Positions 1 through 59,808 of a DNA stretch of 64,000 nucleotides are shown piece by piece; position 1 is the first letter of the stretch; each line of letters opens with the position of its first letter. A model generated the notes under the pieces. It was not told the DNA's origin. It saw only the letters and a program-made list of their open reading frames with translations, and did no database searches. The stretch spans positions 558,001-622,000 of the forward strand of contig NZ_JARVCO010000012.1 of the NCBI RefSeq assembly GCF_034531395.1, in the 5' to 3' direction. The DNA comes from Pontiella agarivorans (GTDB taxonomy: Bacteria; Verrucomicrobiota; Kiritimatiellia; Kiritimatiellales; Pontiellaceae). The position numbers were made by a program, and so were the translations under genes.

Positions 1-1133
1 GTAAAACGGTGTTTGTGATCGGGGACCGCAATTATGCGTCGGAACTCAAGGTGGTCGGACTGATGGATGTGTTCGGCTACAATCTCTATCGTGGCTGGTA
101 TGGCAGCACGGGGTATCAATCGCTGACGGATCGGCTGAATGAACTGCATGCGATGAATCCGGATACACCGTTGATTCTCTCTGAGTACGGTGCGGGGTCG
201 GACCTTGCGGTGCATACGGAAAAACCGCGCCAGCAGGACTTCAGCATTGAGTATCAGAATGATTTTCTCGAATCACATCTCGATCAGATTGAAAAGCTCG
301 ACTGGCTGGCCGGCGCAAACCAATGGGCGTTCTGCGATTTCGGTGCGGCACACCGCGGTGATTCCATTCCGCATGTGAATCAGAAAGGGCTGGTCACGTT
401 TGATCGCCAGAAGAAGGATGCCTTCTATCTGTTTAAATCGCGCTGGAGCACTGAGCCGGTGGTTTACATCGAATCGCCGTTCTGGACCGAGCGCAGCGGT
501 AAGCCGAAAAAGACATATCGTGTATTTTCCAATATGGATACGGTGGAGTTTTTTCATAACGGGCGTTCGCTCGGAAAGCAGACCGAAGGTTTCCGCTGGG
601 CTGTGACGCTGGTTGACGGAGAAAATACGCTGCTTGCCAAAGGGGTGTCTGGGGATGTTCAGCTCGAACACGGGTTCTCAGTTCGTTTCGGTGATAAGGA
701 GGCGAAGTATCTTGTCCGGGCGTCTGCCGAAGAAGCCGCCAATCCGGCCAGCCATCTGGTGGACGGCAACCTGAACACGCGGTGGGGAGCCGAAGGTGAG
801 CAGACTATTGATCTGGATCTGAAAAAAATAAGCCTCGTCAACGGTGTGAAAATTAAATTTTACAAGGGTGAATCGCGGACCTACAAGCTGGAGATTAAGG
901 GATCGTCGGGCGGTAAAAAATCAACCGTGCTGTTTGCCGGTGAAAGCCGGCCGGATGCCGAGCTGCAGACCTTTCTTTTCGACCGTCAGCAGGAGCTCCG
1001 TTATCTGCAGGTTTTTGCCAAAGGGAACAATGAAAATAATTGGAACAGCTATTATGAAATCATTCCGATCGTGACGTTAGAGAAGCAGAACAAGAATCTC
1101 TACGAAACAATCGGGGAAGAATTCGCGCAATAA
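1..1133 (+). CDS. GH2 beta-galactosidase-like enzyme, 3' part (5' end outside window)
   Basis: The reading frame is open to the left edge (codons AAA ACG before the GTG at 9), so the gene starts outside the window. What remains is the end of a GH2 TIM barrel: the stretch ILSEYGAGSDL carries the expected nucleophile glutamate (codon 183-185), followed by WAFCDFG and the GH2 C-terminal beta-sandwich (VFSNMDTVEFFHNG). From about nt 690 there is an F5/8 type C (discoidin, CBM32-like) module with SHLVDGNLNTRWGAEG and FYKGESRTYKLEIKGS. It matches the complete GH2 gene at 19942-22569 over its whole length. The family removes terminal beta-galactosyl or related residues; export is expected, but the signal peptide is not visible. 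A propeller gene follows after 52 bp, suggesting co-transcription. The exact substrate is unknown. Confidence 0.9.
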   Translation, partial: KTVFVIGDRNYASELKVVGLMDVFGYNLYRGWYGSTGYQSLTDRLNELHAMNPDTPLILSEYGAGSDLAVHTEKPRQQDFSIEYQNDFLESHLDQIEKLDWLAGANQWAFCDFGAAHRGDSIPHVNQKGLVTFDRQKKDAFYLFKSRWSTEPVVYIESPFWTERSGKPKKTYRVFSNMDTVEFFHNGRSLGKQTEGFRWAVTLVDGENTLLAKGVSGDVQLEHGFSVRFGDKEAKYLVRASAEEAANPASHLVDGNLNTRWGAEGEQTIDLDLKKISLVNGVKIKFYKGESRTYKLEIKGSSGGKKSTVLFAGESRPDAELQTFLFDRQQELRYLQVFAKGNNENNWNSYYEIIPIVTLEKQNKNLYETIGEEFAQ

Positions 1134-5923: not shown

Positions 5924-7423
5924 ATGAAAAAAATCATACTTACAGCGACGCTGCTCAGTAGTGTTTGTGCTGTATTTGCAGTTGGGAAAACCGGGACTTT
6001 GGCGGGATCAAAACCCAATATTATTCTGGTTATGACGGATGATCAGGGGCCGTTGCTTTCCTGTATGGGCCATCCCGTTCTGCAGACCCCTCACATTGAT
6101 GCGTTCGCAGAAAAAGCACTTCGGTTGACCGATTTTCATGTGAGCCCAACCTGCGCCCCGACCCGTGCAGCTCTGCTGACGGGTCGGCATGAATTTAAAA
6201 ATGGAGTCACGCATACCATCCATGAACGCGAACTGATGGATTTGTCTGCTGTTACCTTTCCACAAGTTCTACAGAGCGCGGGATATGAAACCGGGATTTT
6301 CGGCAAGTGGCATCTGGGCGATATCGAGGAATACTGGCCGGTCAATCGCGGCTTTAATGAAGCGTTAACCCATGGTGCCGGCGGCATAGGGCAGGTATAT
6401 CCGGGAAGCTGTGCTGATTTTCCGCCCAACAGCTCAAATGATCACAGCCCGCGTTATTTTGACAATGTGCTGCTGCACAACAAAACCGCAGTGCAGTCGA
6501 AAGGGTACTGCACGGATGTATTTTTTGAATCGGCGCTGGGGTGGATAAAAAAGCAACTCGATTCAAAGACGCCGTTTTTTGCGTATATCACGCCCAACGC
6601 ACCGCATTCGCCGCTGATTGCGCCGGAAGAAAATGTAGAGCGCATTAATAAGCGTCATCCGGGGTTGGCCAAAGAGCAGCTCGGACGTTGGGGCATGATT
6701 GAAAACATTGACGACAACTTCGGCATGATGATGCAGAAGCTAGAAACCTGGGGGGCACTGAACAACACCCTGGTCATTTTTATGACTGACAACGGCGCAC
6801 AGGTCCGAGACGGGAAAGTCGATGTTTTATGGAATAACGGATACAAAACCGGAAAAGGCTCGCCCGCAGAAGGGGGCACCCGTGTTCCCTGTTTCTGGTA
6901 TTGGAAAAGGAAGCTTCCGGAAGGCGAAGCGTTTTCCGGACTGACAGCTCATCTTGATCTCTACAAAACCTTCTGTGACCTGGCCGGAGCGGCCATTCCT
7001 GAAAATGTACAGGAACTGGATGGTCGCACACTGCTGCCTGTGCTGAATAATCCGAATACGGAATGGGCCGACCGCATGCTCTTTATTCATTCCGGTCGCT
7101 GGGGGGGCGGAGAGGAACCGAACCGCGACGGGCGGAGCGGGGTACGTACACAGCGCTGGCGGCAGGTTGCCGGAAAGTTTCTTTATGATATTTCCAACGA
7201 CCCGAAGGAAACCACAGATGTCTCCAAAAAATATCCGGAAGTGATGGAGCAGCTCACCATGGCCCGTCACGAGTGGTGGGAAAAGACCCTGCCGATGATG
7301 ATTAACGAAGATCGTGAATTTGAAGGAACGGAACCTCCGCTTTTTACACTTTATAACCAGCAGAAAGCGGAGCAGGGCATTCCTGCATGGAATCCTGAAA
7401 CCTATTATGAAGAAGGGAAATAA
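5924..7423 (+). CDS. Exported formylglycine-dependent sulfatase (S1 family)
   Basis: 499 aa with a clear signal peptide (MKKIILTATLLSSVCAVFAV). The alkaline-phosphatase-fold N-terminus is plain: KPNIILVMTDDQG supplies metal-binding aspartates, and CAPTRAALLTGR holds C77, the residue converted to formylglycine. GKWHLGD and the later MTDNGAQ metal motif are also present. It would hydrolyse sulfate esters on polysaccharide fragments outside the cytoplasm after maturation by FGE or anSME, neither of which is encoded here. AAGGAAGG lies upstream of ATG 5924. Its stop overlaps the next sulfatase start by one base (TAATG), which argues for translational coupling. It resembles the sulfatase at 9155 in layout. 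The precise position of the sulfate attacked cannot be read from sequence. Confidence 0.92.
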   Translation: MKKIILTATLLSSVCAVFAVGKTGTLAGSKPNIILVMTDDQGPLLSCMGHPVLQTPHIDAFAEKALRLTDFHVSPTCAPTRAALLTGRHEFKNGVTHTIHERELMDLSAVTFPQVLQSAGYETGIFGKWHLGDIEEYWPVNRGFNEALTHGAGGIGQVYPGSCADFPPNSSNDHSPRYFDNVLLHNKTAVQSKGYCTDVFFESALGWIKKQLDSKTPFFAYITPNAPHSPLIAPEENVERINKRHPGLAKEQLGRWGMIENIDDNFGMMMQKLETWGALNNTLVIFMTDNGAQVRDGKVDVLWNNGYKTGKGSPAEGGTRVPCFWYWKRKLPEGEAFSGLTAHLDLYKTFCDLAGAAIPENVQELDGRTLLPVLNNPNTEWADRMLFIHSGRWGGGEEPNRDGRSGVRTQRWRQVAGKFLYDISNDPKETTDVSKKYPEVMEQLTMARHEWWEKTLPMMINEDREFEGTEPPLFTLYNQQKAEQGIPAWNPETYYEEGK

Positions 7424-9117
7424 TGATAACCAAACTGTTAAAAACGTTACTTTGCGCAGCGGCTGCAGTCGGCAGCATCGCTGCGGCTGAAAAACCGAAT
7501 ATTTTGTTTATTATGTCCGACGATCATACGTCGCAGGCGATCGGTGTGTATAACAGTCGGCTCTCGCCGCTGAATCCGACGCCGACGATTGATTCGATCG
7601 CCCGTGAAGGTATGGTGATGGAGAATGCGTTCACCCAGAACTCAATTTGCACGCCGAGCCGAGCCTGCATCATGACCGGACAGAGCAGTGCGGTGAACGG
7701 GTGTCCGCGGCTGGGGAGCCCGCTTCCGCCGGAAAGACAATATCTGGCTATCGAAATGGGAAAGGCGGGGTACAGCACGGCTGTAATCGGTAAGTGGCAT
7801 CTGAAGGAGCGCCCCGAAGCCTTTGATTATTATAAAGTGCTGCCGGGGCAGGGTCTCTATTTTGATCCCATCTTTCGGGAAAAAGGCGTTGATAACGAAG
7901 TGACTTATGACTTTCACGGAAAAATGGTCACTGAAAAAGGAATCGTTCAGATGAGGGGGCATTCTTCCGACTGCATTGCCGGTTCATCATTGGAATGGCT
8001 TAAAAACGGCCGCGATAAATCCAGACCGTTTTTCCTGAAAATGCATTTTAAGGCGCCGCACGACCTTTTTCAGTACGCACCGCGTTACGCTGATTATCTG
8101 GCTGATGTGACCATTCCGGAACCGGAGAATATGTATGACCGCGGAAATCACGGATCGCTTGCGACGCGTGGTGAAAATGATGAGTTGGTGCATCATCTGG
8201 GGGCCTCGATCGGCCGTCGCAATCCTCACCGGAATTACATCATGGCCGGCGAGTGGAAAAAGACATTGAACGATTCGATGACCGATGAAGAAATTCAGAG
8301 CGCGGCGTATCAGGGCTATCTGAAAGCCTATCTGCGTTGCGTTAAAGGGGTGGATGACAATGTGAAACGGGTCATTGATTATCTCAAAGCGGAAGGGCTG
8401 TATGACAATACCGTCATTATCTACACCGGAGATCAGGGCTTTTATCTGGGAGAACACGATTACATCGACAAGCGTTGGCCGTACGAAGAGTCCATGCGTA
8501 TGCCGTTTATTGTCCGCTACCCGAAGTCGGTTAAAATCGGTCGTTCCGATGCGATTGTGGAAAACATCGACTATGCGCCGACCATGCTGGATTTTGCGGA
8601 TGTTGAAACGCCGGATTATATGCATGGAAAGAGTTTCCGCTCCATTCTTGAAACAGGCGTGGAACCGGATAACTGGAAACAGTCGGCGTATTATCACTAC
8701 TGGCAGCATATGCATGCGCACGATAATCCGGCCTGCATCGCAATCCGCACAAAACGTTATAAGCTGATTCTGTTTTATGGAACATGGATGTCGATGGATA
8801 CTCCGACTACGCCGCCCGCCTGGGAACTCTACGATCTGAAATTGGACCCGAAAGAGAACAATAACGTCATCGATAATCCGGAATATGCCGAGGTGATCGA
8901 ACGCTTGAAGAAAGAGCTGAAAGGCCTGCGTGCGCAGTATCAGGAAGACGGGGCCAACATTCCGTTCAATAAGGTGATCGATGAATACTGGGATTACGGA
9001 CCGGAAGAACGGGCAAAAGCAGTTAAAATTTCGAATGAATATCTCAAACTGCGAGAAAGCAATCCCACCGAAAAAGAGCTGGCTCAGGGCCGTGTTAAGA
9101 AGACAAAGAAAAAATAA
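7423..9117 (+). CDS. Exported sulfatase, CTPSR type (near-duplicate of 49806 gene)
   Basis: 564 aa; ATG 7423 overlaps the preceding stop codon. Signal peptide MITKLLKTLLCAAAAVGSIA, then KPNILFIMSDDHTSQAIG with the metal-binding Asp pair, and CTPSRACIMTG with C76 as the formylglycine site. GKWHLK, KAPHDLF and YTGDQGFYLGEHDYIDKRW complete the S1 sulfatase set. The C-terminus is lysine-rich (RVKKTKKK). It is strikingly similar across its length to the sulfatase at 49806, including DYLKAEGLYDNT and PFIVRYPKSVK. That points to a recent duplication or selection for dosage within the locus. Role: desulfation of an oligosaccharide in the same pathway as the adjacent propeller proteins (inference). 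Confidence 0.92.
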   Translation: MITKLLKTLLCAAAAVGSIAAAEKPNILFIMSDDHTSQAIGVYNSRLSPLNPTPTIDSIAREGMVMENAFTQNSICTPSRACIMTGQSSAVNGCPRLGSPLPPERQYLAIEMGKAGYSTAVIGKWHLKERPEAFDYYKVLPGQGLYFDPIFREKGVDNEVTYDFHGKMVTEKGIVQMRGHSSDCIAGSSLEWLKNGRDKSRPFFLKMHFKAPHDLFQYAPRYADYLADVTIPEPENMYDRGNHGSLATRGENDELVHHLGASIGRRNPHRNYIMAGEWKKTLNDSMTDEEIQSAAYQGYLKAYLRCVKGVDDNVKRVIDYLKAEGLYDNTVIIYTGDQGFYLGEHDYIDKRWPYEESMRMPFIVRYPKSVKIGRSDAIVENIDYAPTMLDFADVETPDYMHGKSFRSILETGVEPDNWKQSAYYHYWQHMHAHDNPACIAIRTKRYKLILFYGTWMSMDTPTTPPAWELYDLKLDPKENNNVIDNPEYAEVIERLKKELKGLRAQYQEDGANIPFNKVIDEYWDYGPEERAKAVKISNEYLKLRESNPTEKELAQGRVKKTKKK

Positions 9118-16762: not shown

Positions 16763-19345
16763 ATGAGTAAAATATTAACAATGCTATTAAGCATTCTGGG
16801 ATGCGTGGGCTTCGTGAATGCGGAGAATTTTATACTGGATGTTCAGCAGGATACATTCATTCAGGCATCAACCAAGGACACCAACTTTGGAAGCGATACG
16901 AACACGTTTGTCCGTTCTGCCAACCCATCTCAGAACTGGGGGCGTGTGGGCTATTATCAGTTTGATATCAGCTCGATAACAGAAGCGCAGCTGAATGCTG
17001 CGGTGAGTGCCGAGCTGACGTTGCATATACAGAGTTTGGCCTCTACGAGCGGTGCCGGTGAAATACGTGTTTACGGGCTCACCGACTCCTGGGATGAAAC
17101 AGCCCTAACATGGAATACCGCACCGATGAAATATATTAATACCTACGGGGACGTGACCGGCTCTCCTGCGCCTTTGTTTGATACAGCTGACGCCACCCAT
17201 GCGAATCTGGGTATTGTGGCGGGGGAAGCCTATGAAATGGCATCGGCCAATATGTTGACCTTCCTGAGGGATGCCAAGGCCGCAGGGAATGATGAAGTAA
17301 CCTTCGTTGTTGCCCCATACAATGATCCGGCGGCTAATTTTGGTTTTTACGCTTATTCCAAAGAAGAAGCCTCCGGAACAAAAGGGGCTTCGCTTCTGAT
17401 TGCTGACTCGGGCGGCTTGGCTCTGACTTCTGTTCAGGTTTTCGGTCCGTCGGAGATCTATGAAGAGACAACGGGTCAATATACCTGTCTGGCATTTTTT
17501 GACGATGGCAGCACGAATGATGTTACCAATACCGCCATATGGTCTGAGGACAATGATACGACTACTATTTCCGCCGGGGTTCTGACGGCCGGGGCAGTTG
17601 ATTTCTCTCAGACGGTTACGGTTGCGGCAAGTTATACCTACGGCACCGTGACAGAAGACGATGCTGTGACGGTTACAGTGAACGATCGTCCGGTGCCGCC
17701 TCCTCCAGTCGTGACGACCGTGTTGTTGAACGAAGATTTTGAAGGCACAATGACCAACTTTACGTGGATCGTGAATGTGGCTGATGCAGCAAATTCCAAT
17801 GCGTATTCATCTACTACAGGCGTTAATCATGCTACCGGAGCAGCCGAAGGGTCGGCAGCACATGTCGGCGATGGGTTGAGCGCCAGTGGCGACAACACGC
17901 TTGCCGCCGGCTGGATACAGGCGAACGACCTGCTGGTCGACCCGGCATCGAACTTTACGATGACGGTTGATTTCAAGTTTGAGCAGGAATCCAATTACGA
18001 TGACTGCCAGATCTTTATCGGCGATCTTAACGGAAAAAGTTATTACCGACTGGGACTCAGTGAAAGTACGGACGCCCAAAGTGCATATCTGATTGAAGGC
18101 GGCGTTCGCAACGGTACTGCGCTTGGAGTGTATGCTCCGGCTTTAGTTGACGATACCTGGTACACGGCAACGGTTGGCTGGGATGCTGCAGCGGAAACCC
18201 TGACTCTTCATGTAGAGGAAGTGGCAGGCTCATCTAATGTGCTGATATTTGCGAGCGTACTGGATGGTTCCGGCGATAAAGTGTCTCTTAAGGATCTGGC
18301 CGCCGGAGGGGTGCAGTTTGGCTTCGGAACGTTCAACGATCGGGCCAGCTGTGACAATGTTGTTATTGCGGGTACTGCTTTGCGTACGCTTACCGATCCG
18401 TCCTTTACCGAGGATTTTGAGAATGGCGGTATTGCCCACTTTACCTGGGTCATGAACTCAGTGACTTCCATCAATGAAAATGCAATCTCAACGATCAACG
18501 GGGTCAATCATGAAACAGGAGCCGAGGAAGGAACGGCCCTGCATGTCGGTGACGGGCTTGTAAGCATCGATAACCATCAGGCTTCAGGCTGGGCATTATG
18601 GGACGGTGTTTCCGTTGACCCGAAATATGATTTCGTGCTGGTGGCTGATGTGAAATATGAGAATGAAGGCGGCTATGATGATGCACTGCTCTTTGTGGGT
18701 GATATGGATGATAAAAGCTATTACCGTCTAAGTCTGGGTGAAAACGATGTTTCGAAACAGATGTGGGCAGTAACCAATGGGGTTAAATATGGTTTGGTGA
18801 CCAACACAAATGGGACACAGACAGCAACTTTGCCGCCTACCGTCTATTATACTGGAAGTTCGCTCGCGGACGATACCTGGTACACCACCATGGTCGAGTG
18901 GGATGCAGACACCGAAAGCATGTCCTTCAGCGTAAGCGGACTGAGCGGCTCGGGATCTAGTTCATTTTCGGACGTCCTGCTGGATGGCAGTTCCTCCAAT
19001 AATCCTGCTTTCATGAGCATGGCCGCCAGTGGCGTACAGTTTGGGTTCGGTACGTTTAATGACCGGGCAAGTTTTGACAACATGGCCGTTTATGTGTTCC
19101 TGCCTCCGTTTAATCCCGATGATCTGGCATACGACATCATTGATATTACTTCATCAAATATGACGATCTCGATTGATGCTGCTGAAGGTCTTACCTATGA
19201 GCTCCAGTGGGACGAAAATCTGATGATTGCACCTACCTGGGCACCGGTTGAAGTGGTTGCCACGACGGGTACAAACACGGTGCATACCTTTAACCTGCCG
19301 GATACGGGAGCTGCAACCAGCTTCTTCCGGTTGATTGCTAAATAG
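16763..19345 (+). CDS. Large exported DNRLRE - Ig-like - LamG x2 protein
   Basis: 860 aa, ATG 16763 with AGGAGAAG upstream, signal peptide MSKILTMLLSILGCVGFVNA. Modules in order: DNRLRE/CBM96-like (about 22-215, DTFIQASTKDTNFGSDTN); bacterial Ig-like (about 220-312, ALTSVQVFGPSEIYEETTGQ); two copies of the LamG-like module (about 318-535 and 546-775), each with EDFE at the start and VQFGFGTFNDRAS near the end; and a C-terminal module ending in AATSFFRLIAK. The LamG-like module is the same as in the PEP-CTERM protein at 15449, but this protein lacks a PEP-CTERM tail. No catalytic motif is visible. It is likely a secreted multi-module carbohydrate-binding protein. A strong terminator follows. 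Confidence 0.82.
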   Translation: MSKILTMLLSILGCVGFVNAENFILDVQQDTFIQASTKDTNFGSDTNTFVRSANPSQNWGRVGYYQFDISSITEAQLNAAVSAELTLHIQSLASTSGAGEIRVYGLTDSWDETALTWNTAPMKYINTYGDVTGSPAPLFDTADATHANLGIVAGEAYEMASANMLTFLRDAKAAGNDEVTFVVAPYNDPAANFGFYAYSKEEASGTKGASLLIADSGGLALTSVQVFGPSEIYEETTGQYTCLAFFDDGSTNDVTNTAIWSEDNDTTTISAGVLTAGAVDFSQTVTVAASYTYGTVTEDDAVTVTVNDRPVPPPPVVTTVLLNEDFEGTMTNFTWIVNVADAANSNAYSSTTGVNHATGAAEGSAAHVGDGLSASGDNTLAAGWIQANDLLVDPASNFTMTVDFKFEQESNYDDCQIFIGDLNGKSYYRLGLSESTDAQSAYLIEGGVRNGTALGVYAPALVDDTWYTATVGWDAAAETLTLHVEEVAGSSNVLIFASVLDGSGDKVSLKDLAAGGVQFGFGTFNDRASCDNVVIAGTALRTLTDPSFTEDFENGGIAHFTWVMNSVTSINENAISTINGVNHETGAEEGTALHVGDGLVSIDNHQASGWALWDGVSVDPKYDFVLVADVKYENEGGYDDALLFVGDMDDKSYYRLSLGENDVSKQMWAVTNGVKYGLVTNTNGTQTATLPPTVYYTGSSLADDTWYTTMVEWDADTESMSFSVSGLSGSGSSSFSDVLLDGSSSNNPAFMSMAASGVQFGFGTFNDRASFDNMAVYVFLPPFNPDDLAYDIIDITSSNMTISIDAAEGLTYELQWDENLMIAPTWAPVEVVATTGTNTVHTFNLPDTGAATSFFRLIAK

Positions 19346-19375
19346 ATGCAATACGGCATTTAGCATACGTAAGGG

Positions 19376-19413
19376 GAGCGCGGTATGACGGGTTCATGCC
19401 GTGCTCATCTTTT
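19376..19413 (+). terminator. Rho-independent terminator after DNRLRE/LamG gene
   Basis: GAGCGCGGTATGA-CGGGT-TCATGCCGTGCTC forms a 13-bp stem with two G-U pairs, followed by ATCTTTT. It lies 30 nt after the stop at 19345. Confidence 0.75.
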
Positions 19414-19539
19414 GTGTGTTCGATGTCGGGGACCTTTGATTCCCATGTGGAATGCGGATGAGATGATTGATTTAATCTATAGAGCTAAATATCGCAATTT
19501 GCTGGCGGTTGGCATTTTGTTTGTCGGTGTGAAGGCTTA

Positions 19540-19908
19540 TCTCCGCAGAATGACGTGTTTGAAGTTGTGGAGCGGGTCAATGATTACTGGATGGAAGAGC
19601 ACCCGGCTATGGGGATAACCGCTGGGTGAACGCGGTTTATTATGCCGCCGCTATTTGCATGCGGCTGTCGGCGGGGATCGTCAGCTGATCGATCAGGATC
19701 AAAACGGGTTTGAATCGGTAGGGTTGGATGCGTCGGGCAGTGCGCGCTTCCACTCCATTGAACAGGCCGGAAGTGTGACGGGAAAATGGGACGTGGTGCC
19801 GGGGCATCAGCAAATTTTGGCAATGGGGATACGAATCGGATTGAGGATGTTACATCGGGCGTTTCAACGGCCGGTTTTTACCGGGTCAAGGCATGGCTTG
19901 AACCCTGA
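19540..19908 (+). pseudogene. Wrecked GH88/GH105-like gene with Verrucomicrobia-type C-terminal module
   Basis: Fragments of coding sequence survive in different frames. PQNDVFEVVERVNDYWMEEH (from about 19543) shifts by one frame near 19612 to GDNRWVNAVYYAA. Together these resemble the start of unsaturated glucuronyl/rhamnogalacturonyl hydrolases of GH88/GH105, where a helix and a D-x-W-x-N(G)-x-x-Y(A) motif follow one another. Further on, GSVTGKWDVVPGHQQILAMG and, in another frame, TNRIEDVTSGVSTAGFYRV resemble the C-terminal module that ends in F(F/Y)R(L/V) in neighbouring enzymes. Most of the catalytic barrel is missing, so the gene is dead. It lies between the terminator at 19376 and the GH2 gene at 19942. 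The family call is by eye and moderate; the frameshifts are certain if the fragments are homologous. Confidence 0.5.
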
Positions 19909-19941
19909 TTGCTGCTGGATTAAATGTAGAAGGAAGCTTTG

Positions 19942-22569
19942 ATGAAAAATATGATCTTTAGTGCACTGTTTTTTCTGGTACAGCACTCATTAGGAATCTC
20001 GATGGAAATGAATTCGGAGGGGCCGTCTACCATGGTGTTGGCGGCGAGCGGCCTTGCTCCCGAAATAGACTATCAGCTTCAGGGGAGCGATAGCCTGACC
20101 GCTTCCAACTGGATGAGTCAGGGGGCGGTCGTTTCCAATGCGGCGATGCATGACTGGCTTGTTTCCTCAGAAGCGCCAACAGCTTTTTTCCGTCTTAGCG
20201 AAAGTACGATGCCGCCCCTGAAAAATCCGTGGGCGAATGTGCAGGTCATGAATGATGACTGGCTTTATCTGGAGCGCGATACCGAAACACTTCCGGCGGA
20301 TGATGACAGCGCTTATGAACAGATTACCCTGCCTCATTCGTGGAATGCTTTTGATTCGGTGCATAGCAATGATTACCGGCGGGCATCGTCCTGGTACCGG
20401 AAGAATCTGGTGGTTACGCCGGATCAACTTTCCGAACGTTTGTATCTTCGTTTTAAAGGAGCCGCGCAACGAGCACGGGTCTATCTGAACGGATCGGAAC
20501 TATCGTTTCATAACGGAGGGTACAGCGCTTTTGTCTGCGAGTTGACAGGACAGGTTTCGGCGGGTACCAACCGGGTTGATGTCTGGGTGAATAATGAAAC
20601 GGTGAGCGATGTTGCCCCGCAGGCCAAACCCGCCAATAAAACCCCGGACTTTAATTCGTATGGAGGGCTGTACCGCTCGGTTCAGCTGATTTCTGCCCCG
20701 GAGATTTCGATTGCCCGCAACTATTATGGCGGCCCCGGATTCAGGCTGTGGAGTGAGTCTGTCAGTGAGGCGGAAGCGGATCTGAAGGTGAAGGTCTGTG
20801 TGGATAACGGATCGGCATCGGCACAATCCGTGGATGTCGGGGTTAAGGTACTGGATCTGGATGGTTCGGTGGTTTCTTTCGGGAGCCACACGGTAGAAGT
20901 CAGCGCCGGGTCTTTTACGAATGTCCTGGTTGCCATGCCGAGTCTGGTGACGCCGCGGTTGTGGAGTCCTGAACGGCCGGAGCGCTATCAAGTGGCTATT
21001 GAGCTGAAACAATCGGGCGCGTTAATTGATTCCGCTACGACCCGCTATGGTTTCCGTTCGTTCGCGATAACGGCGAATAATGGATTTTTCCTGAACGGGG
21101 AGCCGTACAAACTGCGCGGGGTCAACCGTCATCAGGACTATTTTGAGAAAGCCAATGCGCTTTCGTTGGAGCAGCATTGGCGCGATTTGCTGTTGATTAA
21201 GGAAGCGGGGTGCAACTGGCTGCGCCTGGCCCACTATCAGCAGGATGAATATGTCGTGCAGCTTTGTGACGAAATGGGGCTGCTGGTCTGGGAGGAAGTT
21301 CCATACCTTGGAGGAAATATTTCGGCGATGGAACCCACGTTGCGCTCCATGATGAAAGAGATGATTGAGCAGCACTTCAACCATGCTGCCATTGTGATTT
21401 GGGGCATGGGCAACGAAGTGTGGGCGAACGAGAATTTAAGGCAGTATCTGCTTCGAATGAAAGAGCTGGTTCATCAGGAGGATCCGTTGCGCAAAGCGGG
21501 TTATGTGACTGGGGATACTGACAATACATCCGATGCAGGCATTGGCGGTGCCGTCGATGTGCTGGGGTATAACCTCTATCGCGGTTGGTATGGTAATTCG
21601 TACACAGACCTGACGGATCGACTGAATGAACTGCACGCGAAGGATCCGGATACACCGTTAATTCTGACCGAGTTCGGGGCGGGTTCCGATTTGACGATTC
21701 GAAAGGAGAACCCGCGCTCAAAGGATTTCAGTATTGAATATCAGAATGATTTTCTGGAGTCGCATCTGCAACAGATTCAGCAGATTGATTGGCTTTGCGG
21801 AGCCAATTGGTGGGCGTTCTGCGATTTCGGTTCCGTGTGGCGCGGCGATTCTATGCCGCATATCAACCAGAAGGGAATGGTTACCTTTAAACGCGATAAA
21901 AAGCCGGGCTTTTATCTGATGAAATCCTACTGGAACGATGAGCCGGTGGTGTACATAGAAGCGGCTGAATGGACCCCGCGGGATGGCGATTCCAATAAGG
22001 TCTATCGCGTTTTCTCCAACATGAATGAAGTGGAGTTTTTCCAGAACGGCGTTTCACTCGGTACGCAATCCAATCTGTTTTCATGGTCGGTGGCTTTGGC
22101 AAATGGAACAAATACCCTGTCAGCCGTCGGGCGTTCCGGCTCTGTGATGCGCACGCATACCTGTGACATTCTGTTTGGAGAAGTCATCCCTGTTTCCGGG
22201 ATCACCGTAACCGATTATGAAGCAGGTAACCCCGGTCCGCATTTGGTGGATGGTGATTTGTCCACTCGTTGGGCTGCTGAGGGAACACCTACCATTACCT
22301 ATGACATGGGCGAAATGAAGCAGGTTTCGGGGCTTGATATCAAATTTTATAAAGGTGATGAACGAACATACGGTCTGGATATCAGCGGATCGGTGGATGG
22401 GCAGAACTGGAGTGAATATTTTTCCGGCAGCAGTTCGTTAAATTCCGGTTTGGTACGTTTTGACTTTTCCGGGACGCAGTCCATTCGGTTTATTCGCATT
22501 CAGTCGCACGGAAACAGTGCAAATAATTGGAACAGTTATTATGAGCTTATCCCCGTCGAGGTTCCTTAG
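19942..22569 (+). CDS. Exported GH2 beta-galactosidase-like enzyme with F5/8C module
   Basis: 875 aa; ATG 19942 with AGAAGGAAG about 7 nt upstream. Order: signal peptide (MKNMIFSALFFLVQHSLG); small module about 20-90 ending in TAFFRLSES; GH2 sugar-binding domain (about 95-245, LPHSWNAFDSVHSNDYRRAS); Ig-like domain; TIM barrel from about 375 (FFLNGEPYKLRGVNRHQDYF). E492 in IWGMGNEVW is the expected acid/base and E577 in ILTEFGAGSD the nucleophile. A beta-sandwich and a C-terminal F5/8 type C module (about 746-875) follow. This is a complete set for a retaining GH2 enzyme. The 1-1133 gene is a close paralogue. Unusually, the FFRL-type module, C-terminal in other proteins here, sits at the N-terminus. 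Likely exo-beta-galactosidase on algal galactan fragments (inference). Confidence 0.92.
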   Translation: MKNMIFSALFFLVQHSLGISMEMNSEGPSTMVLAASGLAPEIDYQLQGSDSLTASNWMSQGAVVSNAAMHDWLVSSEAPTAFFRLSESTMPPLKNPWANVQVMNDDWLYLERDTETLPADDDSAYEQITLPHSWNAFDSVHSNDYRRASSWYRKNLVVTPDQLSERLYLRFKGAAQRARVYLNGSELSFHNGGYSAFVCELTGQVSAGTNRVDVWVNNETVSDVAPQAKPANKTPDFNSYGGLYRSVQLISAPEISIARNYYGGPGFRLWSESVSEAEADLKVKVCVDNGSASAQSVDVGVKVLDLDGSVVSFGSHTVEVSAGSFTNVLVAMPSLVTPRLWSPERPERYQVAIELKQSGALIDSATTRYGFRSFAITANNGFFLNGEPYKLRGVNRHQDYFEKANALSLEQHWRDLLLIKEAGCNWLRLAHYQQDEYVVQLCDEMGLLVWEEVPYLGGNISAMEPTLRSMMKEMIEQHFNHAAIVIWGMGNEVWANENLRQYLLRMKELVHQEDPLRKAGYVTGDTDNTSDAGIGGAVDVLGYNLYRGWYGNSYTDLTDRLNELHAKDPDTPLILTEFGAGSDLTIRKENPRSKDFSIEYQNDFLESHLQQIQQIDWLCGANWWAFCDFGSVWRGDSMPHINQKGMVTFKRDKKPGFYLMKSYWNDEPVVYIEAAEWTPRDGDSNKVYRVFSNMNEVEFFQNGVSLGTQSNLFSWSVALANGTNTLSAVGRSGSVMRTHTCDILFGEVIPVSGITVTDYEAGNPGPHLVDGDLSTRWAAEGTPTITYDMGEMKQVSGLDIKFYKGDERTYGLDISGSVDGQNWSEYFSGSSSLNSGLVRFDFSGTQSIRFIRIQSHGNSANNWNSYYELIPVEVP

Positions 22570-22637
22570 TGAAAAACATTTGAAGCCGCATTTTAACATC
22601 GCACAAAATGAATAATGAAAACTGGGATCAAAAACAG

Positions 22638-22889
22638 ATGAATAACAGATTTAGTAATCGAATCTGGTTAGTCGCAGTATTCGCTTTGGTCGCGAGCGGT
22701 TGTCAGGCAAAACGGCCGCCTTCAGTCTATGTCCCTCCTGAGGGAGGGTTCGGCTTCCCGGACGGTCGTTCGGCCCTGATGCGGGTCGCGGCCCGGCTCC
22801 GTCACATCGCCGAAACCCAGTGGGGTTCCAAAAGCTACCTCTGTATGGAACGGCTCTACGAACTTGAACGTATGAAGGAGGCCATATGA
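22638..22889 (+). pseudogene. Truncated propeller gene fused to mobile-element-like 3' end
   Basis: The frame starts with a lipoprotein-like or signal peptide (MNNRFSNRIWLVAVFALVAS, then GC) and CQAKRPPSVYVPPEG. This matches the start of the intact propeller gene at 26033, which has CRAKRPPSAYVPPEG. Right after that the homology stops and the frame continues GFPDGRSALMRVAARLRHIA, TQWGSKSYLCMERLYELER. The latter is a basic, helical sequence that recalls the C-terminal ends of ORFs in bacterial mobile elements; I cannot name the family with certainty. The result is an 83-codon chimera with no propeller left. A hairpin lies just downstream. Probably not functional. An in-frame ATG at 22608 is an alternative start. 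Confidence 0.6.
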
Positions 22890-22904
22890 GAAGCCACGCT
22901 CATC

Positions 22905-22927
22905 CCACCTCGGTAAAGCCGAGGTGG
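22905..22927 (+). other. Perfect 9-bp hairpin next to mobile-element-like fragment
   Basis: CCACCTCGG-TAAAG-CCGAGGTGG. It could be the terminal structure of a lost mobile element or a terminator; no U-run follows. The 137 bp from here to 23064 hold no gene; AGAAAGG precedes the PL8 start codon. Confidence 0.45.
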
Positions 22928-23064
22928 AATAACCGGACCGGAACGTACCGTTCCATTTTTAACTAACCGAGAACCTCATAACAAAAGCACGAGAGATTCT
23001 GTATACAACCTGCGGAGACGCTATTACGGGCGGGGAGAATCACGTAAAGAGAAAGGTTTTTATA

Positions 23065-25860
23065 ATGAATAGAATAATCATAAGTTGGATACTGTCATTC
23101 TGGGTAGTATGGACCACTCAAGCTAAAACGAATGTGATCTATGTTGATTTCGGCCCTGCTGGCGACGCCTATTCCGACGTAACCGATCAATATAACAATA
23201 TCAGCTCTCCGAGTTCGATCAGCCTGAAAGACCGGTTAGGAAAAACAAGCGGCATCACTCTTCAATATGCACACTATGCCGGCACGTATAATTATGCCTC
23301 TGGAACTCCGCGTGATGCCGTATCCGGGATCAGCACCAACCTGACAAATGATCGCCTCTATGCCGGAACGGGAGGCTCAGCTAACCTGGGCGAATTCGGG
23401 CTCACCTTAACCCTTTCTGGCTTGGATTTGGAGGGGCACTGTACTATTGACGTCATTCCCAGCCCAACCGGTATTTCGAGCACCTGGAAAATCGTAACCG
23501 GAACAGGCGACACGACAGAATATATTCAAGACGGTACCACGAAGAGCACTTATTTTTCATGGAAAAACATTTACCCCGACACCAATGGCACCGTTGTCAT
23601 TACCGGCAGGGCCATCACCAACTCAAAATGGAAGAATGTAGGCATTTCCGGTCTAAAGGTTTCGGTGCATGCTGCGCCCACTCGTTTCCATGTAGCCTCG
23701 CTGAATGATCAGCAGGTAGAGATCGAGGCCACCGGAATGGATCTGGATTACCAATATAATCTGGAATATTGCACCAACCTATTTTCGAATGAGTGGCAAT
23801 CAATTGATGGCACCGTTTTTGCCGTTAAAGAGCATCGCTGGAACCAAACCAACGACGCCCCTGTCGCCTTTTTTCGCCTCAACGGCCAGGACAAGATGAT
23901 TGATATTCAAAAAGTGCACTCTCAGTTTATTGATTATTTCGCAGAGAACGCCCCCAACGACGCCACTACGCAAGCCAATCTGGACAGCATGCAGGCTGAC
24001 GGCACCTGGCCAGATGTCGATTATGAGAGTCAGCAGCGCTCCGGCTGGCCCACCACGATTCATTTGACCCGACTGACCTCGATGGCTCAATCCTATGTCG
24101 ATAGCCGCTCCAGTTTTTATAAAGATCCCGTCCTGCTCGATGCCATCCTGCTAGGGCTCCAGCATTGGTTGGATGAAGACTATAAAAATCCAAACTGGTT
24201 TACCTGGAAAATCAGTGTACCCCTTTACTTTTTACGCACATTCACCCTGCTTGGGGATGACCTTCCTGTATCCATGTATACCGAAGGGCGTTCGAAAATC
24301 TTTAAGAACACCGCGATGGATATGACCGGTGCCAATCAGGTTAGTTTGGCCACAAAAGTGTTCATGCGCGGTTTATTAGACAAAGATATTTCGCTTATGC
24401 ATCAGGCCAGCACCGTACTATGGAACGAACTATACATCACCACCGAAGAAGGCATTCAGCCGGACTGGAGTTACCACCAGCATGGACCGCAACAGCAGTT
24501 TGGTAATTATGGTTTAGGCATGACCGCCTTGATGATTGAACAAGGCCTATACATGCGCGATACCCTTTATGCCCCCGTAGCCTCGCGTCTTGAAATTTTG
24601 CGCAACTTTATGCTCGAAGGGGAAGCCTGGGTGATCTGGAAGGGACGGATGGATCTCAGCGGAGTCGGGCGCAACTTTTATCCGAACACGCAGACCTTGC
24701 GAGGCACCAAAGTGGCCAATCAACTTCGGGATATGATCAAGATCGATCCCGCCGCAAGGGTTGCCTATGAACAGGTGATTGATTCAACAAACCCTCGTCC
24801 CGGTCATCGTTCCTTCTGGCGCTCCGAGCTGGCTGTTCACCGTCGCCCGGAATGGTATAGTTCCGTAAAAATGACCTCCACGCGAGTCGTCGGCACCGAA
24901 ACGGCGAATGAACAAAATCTATTGGGCGCTCATCTTGCCGACGGTGTGCTTTATCTCTACCAAACCGGCGCAGAATATGAGGATGTAACCGGCCTATGGG
25001 ACTGGCACCGACTCCCCGGAACGACGTGCGATCAGGGGAACGACAACCTGCTCCCCAATGGCTGGAATAATGAGTATGGAAAATCGCCCTATGCCGGTGT
25101 CTTAAACGACGGCGAAAATGGTATGGCCGCGATGATTTATAAGCGTAAGAATCTGTCCGCCCGCAAAGCCTGGTTCTTCGGTGCCGACACAGTTACGTGC
25201 CTGGGCGCAGGCATCGGCGGAAGCACCTCCGGCTCCGTTTATACCTCCGTAGAGCAATCTTGGCTCAATGGTCCTGTAACTACCGCTTCAGGCCCTTTAA
25301 CAACCGGTACCAATACACTGGCAGCTGGCACCTGGGTTCAACACAACAATATCGGCTACCATCTTCTCCAACCCGCCACCGTTAATTTCGGAGAAGTAAC
25401 CGGAGACTGGCAGGATATCAATGGGTTCTATGAAAATGGTGCCATCACCGGTGATGTATTCAGCATTTGGATTGACCATGGGGCCTCACCCGTCAACGCC
25501 AGCTATGCATATACGCTCTACCCACAAACCGATGGAACCCAAATGGCTGATGCCATTCTGAATAATGAAACCAAGATTCTCAGCCAAACTGAAGACCTGT
25601 TAGCCATTGAAAACTCCGTTGGTGTTCAGGCCGTATTTTATAGCGCCGGAAGCCTCGCCAGCCAAAGCGGCATCCTTGTTGAAGTCAATCAACCCTGCCT
25701 GCTCATGTTGAAAAACGACCGCGTCATCGTCAGTGATCCGCTTCATTCCGCGGAAACCATCACTGTCACCATCGGTGGTGTTGCCCGGCAGATTGTGCTC
25801 CCCACTGACGGGAATGCAGGGCAACAGGTTTCCTTAGACCGAAGCCTCTTCGCCGAGTAA
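23065..25860 (+). CDS. Exported polysaccharide lyase family 8 enzyme with novel N-terminal module
   Basis: 931 aa, signal peptide MNRIIISWILSFWVVWTTQA. Residues about 22-210 form a beta-rich module I do not recognise (VIYVDFGPAGDAYSDVTDQY). About 215-275 is the FFRL-type module. From about 280 comes the PL8 alpha/alpha toroid with NPNWFTWKISVPLYF, then the beta-sandwich domains. The PL8 catalytic residues are all present: N424 (TGANQV), H473 and Y482 (YHQHGPQQQFGNYGLG) and R536 (GVGRNFYPN). H-to-Y spacing (9) and Y-to-R spacing (54) equal those of chondroitin AC lyase. PL8 enzymes cleave uronic-acid polymers (hyaluronan, chondroitin, xanthan) by beta-elimination. Codon usage favours C-ending codons more than the neighbours, suggesting later acquisition. 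It acts outside the cytoplasm; the exact substrate is unknown. Confidence 0.9.
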   Translation: MNRIIISWILSFWVVWTTQAKTNVIYVDFGPAGDAYSDVTDQYNNISSPSSISLKDRLGKTSGITLQYAHYAGTYNYASGTPRDAVSGISTNLTNDRLYAGTGGSANLGEFGLTLTLSGLDLEGHCTIDVIPSPTGISSTWKIVTGTGDTTEYIQDGTTKSTYFSWKNIYPDTNGTVVITGRAITNSKWKNVGISGLKVSVHAAPTRFHVASLNDQQVEIEATGMDLDYQYNLEYCTNLFSNEWQSIDGTVFAVKEHRWNQTNDAPVAFFRLNGQDKMIDIQKVHSQFIDYFAENAPNDATTQANLDSMQADGTWPDVDYESQQRSGWPTTIHLTRLTSMAQSYVDSRSSFYKDPVLLDAILLGLQHWLDEDYKNPNWFTWKISVPLYFLRTFTLLGDDLPVSMYTEGRSKIFKNTAMDMTGANQVSLATKVFMRGLLDKDISLMHQASTVLWNELYITTEEGIQPDWSYHQHGPQQQFGNYGLGMTALMIEQGLYMRDTLYAPVASRLEILRNFMLEGEAWVIWKGRMDLSGVGRNFYPNTQTLRGTKVANQLRDMIKIDPAARVAYEQVIDSTNPRPGHRSFWRSELAVHRRPEWYSSVKMTSTRVVGTETANEQNLLGAHLADGVLYLYQTGAEYEDVTGLWDWHRLPGTTCDQGNDNLLPNGWNNEYGKSPYAGVLNDGENGMAAMIYKRKNLSARKAWFFGADTVTCLGAGIGGSTSGSVYTSVEQSWLNGPVTTASGPLTTGTNTLAAGTWVQHNNIGYHLLQPATVNFGEVTGDWQDINGFYENGAITGDVFSIWIDHGASPVNASYAYTLYPQTDGTQMADAILNNETKILSQTEDLLAIENSVGVQAVFYSAGSLASQSGILVEVNQPCLLMLKNDRVIVSDPLHSAETITVTIGGVARQIVLPTDGNAGQQVSLDRSLFAE

Positions 25861-26032
25861 TTTTAGGTTTCAGAAGATCAGAAATATAATTTGGTGGAGC
25901 AACAGGTAAGAAGTGCAGATAAAATGTTTTTCCGCATTAGGCTGTCACAACCGGCTGGCGGTAATTAAATCAATCTGAGGTACAGTTCAGATGCTGTATT
26001 TTAAGACAAAACATATGAGGTATGAAGAGAAT

Positions 26033-27427
26033 ATGATCCATAAAGTAATTAAAAAAAGATGTGAACGAAGTGCGTGTGTTCTCGCGGTTTTGGTTCTTAC
26101 AATGGGGGTGTGCCGGGCAAAGCGGCCGCCGTCTGCTTATGTCCCGCCGGAAGGGTTGGTTTATGGAGCGGCATTTATTGATCGGTTTCTACCTGTTCCG
26201 GTTCACGGTGAATTGCGCTCTGATGTTTGGGGCGCGACCAATGTGATTCCGCGCGCGGTTGAAAACGGAATCGAGGATGCCGAATATTCCTATTGGGGCG
26301 GAAATATTATTGTGGGGGATGACGGCAAAAACCATCTGTTCGTATGCCGCTGGCCGGAAGATAATGTAAAGGGCGGGGGCAAAGCCTCCGGGCATCATAC
26401 GTGGTGGTCTTCAGTTGTCGTGCATGCCGTCAGCGATAACCCGCTGGGTCCGTATAAGGTGATCGATGAAGTCGGTCCGGGGCACAATCCGGAGATCTAT
26501 CGCCTGGCGGACGGAAGCTATAAAATCGGAGTGATGCGTAAATCCTATCATGGCCCGACGCTGAATGGTCCCTGGACGCTTCTGGACACGACTCTGCACA
26601 TCAAAAAGCCGGGAAGTTACATCAATGAATCCAATAAAACATTTGTGCCCCGTGAAGATGGGAGTGTGCTGATGATGAACAAGAACGGCGTTGTTTTTAT
26701 CAGTGAAAAAGGGGATGAAAATTTTGTTCAGGTCACCGGCGGTGTATATCCCAAACTGCCCGGCGAATATCTTCTGGAAGATCCCGTCATCTGGAAAGAC
26801 GAGGTGCAATATAATCTGATTGTGAACGACTGCTGGGGACGCGCGGCTTTTTATATGCGTTCGAAAGATGGACTTAAATGGAAATGGGCACCGGGACTGG
26901 CCTATACCCCGGATATTATGAAACATGAGGGCGGAACGTCGGAGAAATGGTGGAAGTTTGAGCGGCCGAAAGTCCGGCAGGATCAATACGGACGGGCAAC
27001 GCATATGAATTTTGCTGTGATCGATGTTTATAAAGATGATGATCTGGCCAACGACAACCACAGCTCAAAAAATATAGTTATTCCGTTGGAGGTCCCGCGT
27101 CGTCTTCAGATTTTGAATACGGCGCCCATCACGGCGGCTACTGCGGAAATTAAAGTTAAAATTTTGGCAGAAGAAGGTTTTGATCCCCGTCGGGATGTGG
27201 ACCGGACATCGTTGTCTTTCGGCGCGCCGGAAGCGGTTAATTTCGGAAAAGGCTGTGCGCCCATTTCAACAGAGGTTTCGGGAGCGGATTTGCTGGTTAC
27301 CTTTGCTGGCCGGGGAAATGGAATCTCTCCGGATCATTATGCCGCAAAGTTAATCGGCCGTAAAACGGATGGCAGTCTGCTGTTTGGATTTGCAACGTTG
27401 CCGACGGCTGTTGTTGCGGACGAGTAG
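26033..27427 (+). CDS. Exported GH43-like propeller protein, subgroup B
   Basis: 464 aa from ATG 26033 (GAAGAG a few nt upstream); in-frame ATGs at 25991 and 26015 would only add a polar leader. Signal peptide SACVLAVLVLTMGVCRA. The propeller covers about 30-350: ENGIEDAEYSYWGGNIIV, GPGHNPEIYRLADGSYKIG, LLEDPVIWKDEVQYNLIVND and NDNHSSKNIVIP. At the blade-1 position where relatives at 1186, 3875 and 11006 have YWDG, this protein has YWGG (G89), so the GH43-type base is missing. A beta-sandwich tail of about 110 aa (AEEGFDPRRDVDRTSLSFGA) is shared with the 41109 and 48108 proteins. Either a different catalytic residue is used or the protein only binds sugar. It sits between PL8 and a DUF5703 enzyme. 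Confidence 0.78.
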   Translation: MIHKVIKKRCERSACVLAVLVLTMGVCRAKRPPSAYVPPEGLVYGAAFIDRFLPVPVHGELRSDVWGATNVIPRAVENGIEDAEYSYWGGNIIVGDDGKNHLFVCRWPEDNVKGGGKASGHHTWWSSVVVHAVSDNPLGPYKVIDEVGPGHNPEIYRLADGSYKIGVMRKSYHGPTLNGPWTLLDTTLHIKKPGSYINESNKTFVPREDGSVLMMNKNGVVFISEKGDENFVQVTGGVYPKLPGEYLLEDPVIWKDEVQYNLIVNDCWGRAAFYMRSKDGLKWKWAPGLAYTPDIMKHEGGTSEKWWKFERPKVRQDQYGRATHMNFAVIDVYKDDDLANDNHSSKNIVIPLEVPRRLQILNTAPITAATAEIKVKILAEEGFDPRRDVDRTSLSFGAPEAVNFGKGCAPISTEVSGADLLVTFAGRGNGISPDHYAAKLIGRKTDGSLLFGFATLPTAVVADE

Positions 27428-58500: not shown

Positions 58501-59808
58501 ATGATGAAAATAAAACTGCATGCTATAGCAATTCTCCTGTTTGTTTTTCCTTTGTTGGCTCAGGCCAACTATACAGAAACCATGGCCGCTGAAGGCCTGG
58601 AGAAAAATCTGGGGAAAGATTACAACCTCGTTGATGACCATGCTGAAAACGATCAAAGCGAAAAGGTCCAGCACGCGATTGATGATATGGCGGATGCCGG
58701 CGGCGGGCGGCTGATTATTCCGAAAGGGACGTACTCCTTTCGGAACATCCATCTGAAATCCAATGTCCATCTGCTGATTGAAAAAGGTGCGGTGATTAAG
58801 CCCGACTGGCCGGTAGGGGATAAGATCTGCGTTTTTACCCTTCACCCGGAATCAGGTGCAGCACCGGATGCGTTTATTGAAAACGTCAGTATTCGCGGAT
58901 TGGGCGGGCGTTGGACTGTCGACTATTCCGATCGATTCCCGCGTAAGGGAGAAGGGGCCCGGGCGGTAATTTGCAGAATGGTTCGGAACTTCCTGATTGC
59001 TGACCTCGATGTGAGAGATAATTACACGGTGTATTGCGGGCTGACTTTGAGTCCGACCTCTTCGCGGGATCCCGATGCTGAAAACTGGGACGTGTCGCGG
59101 GCCACGGATGGAACGATCCGTAATTGCCGGATTTTTAACGGGAGTCCGGGCTATGGTCTGGTTCAGTTGCATGGGGCTCAGAATGTGCATTTTGAAAACC
59201 TTTATGCCGATGGAGGCGTTGCGTTGCGGCTTGAAACGGGAGCTGGCTTTTTACATACGGGCGTTTTCAATATAACCGCGCGAAACATTGTTTGTGAGAA
59301 TGGCCGCTGTGCCGTGATGATGGGTCCGCACAGTGCCATGAATGGAAAAGTTACTATTGAAAATGTGAAGGCCATCGGCTGTACGTATGCCGTCCAGCTC
59401 GGACAGGGCGGGGTGAAAGCAAATGCTTTAAAATTGAACCCCAATGCAAAGCCCGGCATTTTTTCAAAGGGCAGTTCCATTAAAAATATTCATGCGGTGT
59501 TCGGTATGAATGCGCAGCTGAAGAATGCGTCGATGCAGCTCATCCCTGAAGCGTACTTCAAGGATCTGCGCCTCTGGTATGACAACAAGTTTATGAGCGG
59601 CCCATCCATCGCCCCGGTTTATGACGCGTCAGAGGATCAATATGACGTGACCCTTTCCCTCATAACTGCAGAAGGTTTTACCTACAACAAAGATAAGAAA
59701 ATTTTATTTCCGGAAGATGCCCGTGAGGGCAAGTGGGCCGTCACCTTCAAAAACTGGAAATCCAAATACGGTACCAGAGAAACGCGTCGTCCTGTGAAAG
59801 GTGATTAA
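58501..59808 (+). CDS. Exported right-handed beta-helix protein (GH28/pectate-lyase-3-like)
   Basis: 435 aa (ATG 58504 equally possible), signal peptide LHAIAILLFVFPLLAQANY. DDHAENDQSEKVQHAIDDMA and GGGRLIIPKGTYSFRNIHLK are the start of the pectate_lyase_3/GH28-like beta-helix: an Asn/Asp-rich turn, Q-x-A-I-D and a G-x-Y motif. Repeating strands follow (NVSIRGLGGRWTVDYS, TIRNCRIFNGSPGYGLVQLH, NITARNIVCENGRCAVMMG). Several carrageenases (GH82) and polygalacturonases (GH28) share the fold, and I cannot choose between them; no clear GH28 catalytic DD pair was found. A polysaccharide lyase or hydrolase role is likely. The tandem relic just upstream shows past duplication. It is followed by a sulfatase after 63 bp. 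Confidence 0.75.
   Translation: MMKIKLHAIAILLFVFPLLAQANYTETMAAEGLEKNLGKDYNLVDDHAENDQSEKVQHAIDDMADAGGGRLIIPKGTYSFRNIHLKSNVHLLIEKGAVIKPDWPVGDKICVFTLHPESGAAPDAFIENVSIRGLGGRWTVDYSDRFPRKGEGARAVICRMVRNFLIADLDVRDNYTVYCGLTLSPTSSRDPDAENWDVSRATDGTIRNCRIFNGSPGYGLVQLHGAQNVHFENLYADGGVALRLETGAGFLHTGVFNITARNIVCENGRCAVMMGPHSAMNGKVTIENVKAIGCTYAVQLGQGGVKANALKLNPNAKPGIFSKGSSIKNIHAVFGMNAQLKNASMQLIPEAYFKDLRLWYDNKFMSGPSIAPVYDASEDQYDVTLSLITAEGFTYNKDKKILFPEDAREGKWAVTFKNWKSKYGTRETRRPVKGD

Follow-up and report, generated by a model that had tools for sequence, protein, structure and literature searches.

The 93-codon open reading frame at 22608–22889 of the window (the whole 64-kb stretch of DNA that was analysed, to which coordinates refer unless a contig or locus is named) consists of two unrelated pieces, the start of a propeller-type gene and the end of an IS256-family transposase, and is probably a non-functional pseudogene fusion, to judge from its sequence. 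The transposase piece lies in a segment that is almost certainly the right end of an IS256-family insertion sequence (Table 1), and what has been lost at the locus is the left 80% of that element, about 89% of its transposase and the body of the propeller gene. Our favoured account, to which we would give a probability of roughly 0.65, is that the element inserted upstream of the neighbouring polysaccharide lyase family 8 (PL8) gene and that a deletion followed.

Results

The frame runs from an ATG at 22608 (or 22638) to a TGA at 22887–22889, as read from the sequence, and its signal-peptide-like start contains the motif LVASGC, which we take to be lipobox-like. The original prediction had likened this start to the protein encoded at 26033, and the comparison was borne out: codons 22704–22745 specify QAKRPPSVYVPPEG in the head and RAKRPPSAYVPPEG in the 26033 gene, the two match at 44% across 50 residues (tblastn), and a search of the genome from which the window comes (12 contigs, 4,436,865 bases) with the 26033 protein retrieved the head at E 2.3e-4, one of 31 matching places when the gene itself and the head are counted. 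Nine of the 14 codons compared differ between head and 26033 gene, seven of them synonymously and two with an amino acid change, and the lost propeller gene was therefore once under selection itself. The propeller gene had been described as decapitated, which reverses the facts, as the head is what survives and the body is what was lost. Homology to the propeller gene is clear up to 22745 and the alignment to the element starts at 22751.

A model of the 26033 protein (mean pLDDT 79.9, from an alignment of 12 rows) resembled sialidases and propeller enzymes of the GH32/43/62/117/159 type in Foldseek, with E values down to 1.3e-9 and modest TM-scores (the best target-normalised value being 0.61 among the listed rows), so that ‘propeller’ is a fair name. 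The sequence of the same protein gave only a sub-threshold DUF6600 match in Pfam, no match in NCBIfam and none among PDB sequences at E up to 1. Approximately 3.7 kb to the left of the window (L091 5230–9297, G000 C12:550229–554296) stand three tandem propeller paralogs with 63–65% identity to the 26033 gene; next comes a GH2 gene that runs into the window (3–1070) and shares 55% identity with the 19939 gene there. The arrangement is a repeated GH2/propeller module.

Table 1. Features of the fused frame and its surroundings
Feature	Coordinates	Strand	Basis or remark
Propeller-type gene head, paralog of 25991/26033–27427	22608..22745	+	Homology to 26033 gene; signal-peptide-like stretch with LVASGC, then QAKRPPSVYVPPEG
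Junction of propeller head and transposase tail	22746..22751	+	In frame; exact base not assignable
Right-end remnant of IS256-family insertion sequence	22751..23010	+	Aligned to 1166–1442 of the 1,442-bp G032 element
Last 45 codons of transposase, with stop	22752..22889	+	Starts downstream of NPLER motif (residue 342, L006 protein)
Strong hairpin within element, past transposase stop and before right end	22905..22927	+	z −4.1
Second short hairpin, then T-rich run; terminator-like, weak	22940..22954	+	One site found versus 0.7 expected in shuffles
Right terminal inverted repeat, finishing on terminal base	22987..23010	-	18/24 bases as in G032 right end
Expected site of right copy of 8-bp target duplication	23011..23018	+	Length inferred from 6/8 complete G032 copies
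PL8 gene, GC-skew anomalous	23065..25860	+	Starts 54 bp past element end
Intact propeller paralog, reference for truncated head	25991..27427	+	Search, model, Foldseek

The switch, within the one frame, to FPDGRSALMRVAARLRHIA had been read as the end of a mobile-element gene, and this reading too was upheld: the tail represents the C-terminal end of an IS256-family transposase and has nine matches, with 71% identity across 42 residues (E 1.0e-15), in the genome G032, which belongs to the same order. Searched by itself against Pfam and NCBIfam (E up to 1), the 45-residue tail matched nothing, and its family assignment therefore rests on full-length relatives, the 405-residue G032 transposase matching PF00872 at 1.3e-116 and NF033543 at 2.7e-112. 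Eight of the nine G032 loci hold complete and identical copies of the element, by which its ends are defined, and the ninth (L013) lacks the left part. Target-site duplications in the IS256 family measure 8–9 bp, and perfect 8-bp duplications flank all of the complete G032 copies except L007 and L008. In that genome, the right flank of L007 is the left flank of L008, as after a rearrangement, and beyond the left-truncated copy at L013 lies another right end that differs slightly from the first.

Aligned with the G032 element, the segment 22751–23010 scored 387, as against 142 ± 19 (maximum 224) for 200 mononucleotide shuffles, and 22961–23010 matched the right end of the element gap-free through the last base. 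The element predicted earlier is thus present and extends 83 bp further than the 22927 at which it had been taken to end. The remnant begins at about transposase residue 360, past the NPLER motif at residue 342; the DDE catalytic segment is absent, and only the right one of the two terminal inverted repeats is kept. Tail and G032 transposase differ at 39 of 126 bases, 8, 7 and 24 of these being at codon positions 1, 2 and 3, so that the tail diverged while coding.

A terminal-repeat scan of the window with three queries, the letters of its own right end among them, yielded no left end at a threshold of 17/24; besides the right end there was a single match, 17/24, at 58965. As controls, five 10-kb shuffles scanned on a single strand gave top scores of 14–16, and against these a score of 17/24 from both strands of 64 kb does not stand out clearly from chance. 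We therefore rejected a composite transposon around the PL8 gene, for which this was the only other terminal-repeat match. A tandem element junction, with a right end followed by a left, was also rejected, as the flank 23011–23064 scored 50 against the left 120 bp of the element and shuffles scored 56 ± 8. No exact partner of 23011–23018 was found at 18001–23010, the left end and its flank having been lost.

Searches with the tail found relatives in mobile elements, in line with the original prediction. The tail was present in 3 of the 58 genomes of the relatives search and in 27 of the 387 genomes of the phylum sample at E ≤ 0.001 (the own genome counted in each), and a pattern scan of genome_contigs gave at least 594 matches, at least 558 of which encode a relative of the tail. 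Among the best 80 of these 558 are tails from several other phyla (for instance Planctomycetes and Clostridia) that are 55–76% identical over 34–45 residues, and 25 records of the plasmid collection matched, the best at 67.6%; the G032 element is for this reason the best-defined relative and not a uniquely close one. Conservation of the fused frame in relatives, the outcome that would have favoured a genuine gene, was looked for among 27 same-genus genomes (E ≤ 0.01; completeness 59 to 96%), none of which contained the tail, and the frame is therefore not a conserved gene. A search of Rfam over 22400–23200 gave no match at E up to 1, and literature searches listed no paper on the locus.

A search of the rest of the genome for full copies had been proposed originally; neither a full nor a second copy was found, and besides the right end itself the searches returned only a left end on contig C10 and distant transposase-like stretches at C12:149828–150586 (best E 2.1e-5, 29% identity). 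The C10 sequence (L067, approximately 7207–7754, minus strand) comes from the left end of a related IS256-family element, is decayed and retains a terminal repeat (17/24). We considered it as the missing half of the window element and rejected it, taking it as a separate old remnant because it has two stops, shares 51% identity with residues 1–85 of the G032 transposase and lies in a 16-kb stretch with no propeller or PL8 match at E 1e-4. The terminal-repeat scan gave another match of 17/24 at L067 14759, perhaps by chance.

Between the transposase stop and the PL8 gene, the hairpin noted previously is present, with nine Watson–Crick pairs and one G–U pair, and is now seen to be part of the element itself; the z value given for it in Table 1 is that of the fold of 22887–22970. 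The equivalent position in the G032 element is occupied by another, dissimilar hairpin, which is also strong (z −6.0). When the 110 bases from the stop were folded in 28 relatives, without shuffle controls, energies ranged from −48.3 to −14.3 kcal/mol, and several relatives had long hairpins and several had none (L005, L039, L042 and L048 among the latter). A terminator role for the element hairpin is plausible.

The closest solved structure to the PL8 protein is chondroitinase AC, and its match to the NCBIfam chondroitinase-AC model fell far under the model cut-off. The gene had been called compositionally distinct, which is true of its GC skew (−0.063 overall and −0.293 at third positions) and untrue of its GC content, which is ordinary. 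Third-position skew ranged from −0.037 to +0.269 in six other local frames, the fused frame included, and lay between +0.055 and +0.227 in four relatives of the PL8 gene; the IS remnant has a GC skew of −0.077. A two-change-point fit of skew placed the anomalous block best at 22709–25809, with near-best left edges, by an informal criterion, anywhere in 22399–23179, and the ten lowest-skew 2.8-kb intervals in the 64 kb all begin at 22501–23401. The original prediction set the event exactly at the left border of the PL8 gene; the element end does adjoin the PL8 start codon, and the left edge of the skew is placed only within the range just given. Among 58 genomes, the closest PL8 relatives (62–63% identical) were in two of the same genus, so that a distant source is not needed, and the PL8 neighbourhoods L088, L089 and L090 contained no transposase match at E 1e-4.

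Discussion

The remnant has its transposase family and right terminal repeat in common with IS256-family systems such as the G032 element and ISCth4, but unlike these it comprises the right 260 bp only, without the catalytic segment or the left end; on sequence grounds it is not mobile by itself and not a complete active element of the family. ISCth4 is reported to be 1,503 bp long, with target duplications that are mostly 8-bp (PMC7780238), and the G032 element resembles it in its 8-bp duplications and in carrying the halves of a hybrid promoter in its ends.

In the account that we prefer, an IS256-family element would have inserted ahead of the PL8 gene, both reading in one direction and 54 bp separating the right end of the element from the gene, and a later deletion or illegitimate recombination would have joined the propeller gene at about codon 36 (counted from the ATG at 22638) to the transposase at about codon 360. 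This second event would have removed the propeller body, the left end of the element and most of the transposase, bringing the two pieces into frame by chance and leaving of the element only a defunct right end that still carries the terminal repeat and the hairpins. A past insertion or recombination had been proposed originally, and our data support this; insertion alone leaves the structure unexplained, and deletion or recombination is therefore needed as well. The order of the events and the deletion mechanism are what we infer from these remains. As the differences of the head are mostly synonymous and those of the tail mostly at third positions, both pieces, small though the numbers are, would seem to have accumulated their differences as coding sequence, before the fusion brought them together, and this speaks against the head being a recent, incomplete duplicate of the 26033 gene. 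Had the element landed inside the propeller gene, the remainder of that gene would be expected to its right, and the absence of any remainder there, in comparisons of the flank 23011–23064 with propeller loci L014–L017, counts against such a landing. Three of the four comparisons scored under the shuffle mean; the fourth, L014, scored 101 versus 82.8 ± 7.0 (z approximately 2.6) and was rejected as a chance match, which falls in a DUF5703 gene.

The change in composition fits equally well a different history, in which the PL8 gene came in together with the truncated element, as a single block (approximately 22750–25900), by transfer or by intragenomic movement, with the left end of the block inside the propeller gene. 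The third-position skew of the PL8 gene, outside the range of local frames and PL8 relatives alike, the negative skew of the remnant, the change-point block and the clustering of the lowest-skew intervals all speak for joint arrival, but the GC content of the PL8 gene is ordinary, its nearest relatives within the genus make a distant source unnecessary, the left edge of the skew is loosely placed, and to the right of the PL8 gene there is no second element end at 17/24 or better save that at 58965; we consider this history possible but unlikely. It is doubtful that remnant and PL8 gene form one co-moving block that replaced the propeller body in a sulfatase/glycosidase cluster, and that mobile elements swap the genes of such clusters in this way. 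Compatible with either history is the suggestion, made by analogy, that the right end of the element may contribute promoter parts to the PL8 gene. ISCth4 is reported to have a hybrid-promoter layout with hexamers in its right and left ends (PMC7780238), the ends of the G032 element carry TGGACA (right, bp 11–6) and TATTAA (left, bp 8–13), and upstream of the PL8 start we find TGTATA (23000–23005) and, after 16 nt, TATTAC (23022–23027). Yet this candidate has only 7/12 consensus bases, an equally good second hexamer occurred in 12% of 2000 shuffled flanks, and a promoter scan at a threshold of 9/12 gave only a minus-strand site here, so that we think such a contribution very improbable.

That the fusion might have given rise to a new gene, the fused frame coding for a small lipoprotein with a function, is suggested by the frame remaining open through the junction, by the retained signal-peptide-like start and by the presumed lipobox, but the tail is a transposase fragment missing from all the same-genus genomes searched, and we give this reading hardly any credence. 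A chimeric assembly may be thought of because the Pontiella agarivorans NLcol2 assembly is described as a draft from short reads, but the same source gives a mean coverage of 593x (PMC10880615), and the segment over the junction is single-copy in its genome, which makes a misjoin across a repeat unlikely; an artefact of this kind seems to us extremely improbable.

With insertion followed by deletion as the preferred reading, the 93-codon frame, which annotators could mistake for a small lipoprotein gene, is explained as spurious, and the remnant marks a rearrangement beside the PL8 gene of a marine polysaccharide-degrading bacterium. Most likely, the fused frame is the ordinary scar of a common genome rearrangement and represents no new kind of system. 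On the same contig, a second propeller gene is cut to its head and followed by a transposase-bearing element (L092 2259–3706, in G000 C12:842500–847500). This head (C12:844758–844994) comprises 79 residues, is 64.6% identical to the window's 3866 gene, and is not continued by a propeller body within the 5-kb locus. The element beside it is presumably IS3-like. Both loci have a propeller head next to a mobile element and lack the body, but the L092 element, unlike the window remnant, still has long transposase frames. Were remnant and PL8 gene indeed a co-moving block, L092 would be a parallel case. Taken together, the two loci suggest that mobile elements add to gene turnover in large marine sulfatase/glycosidase clusters.
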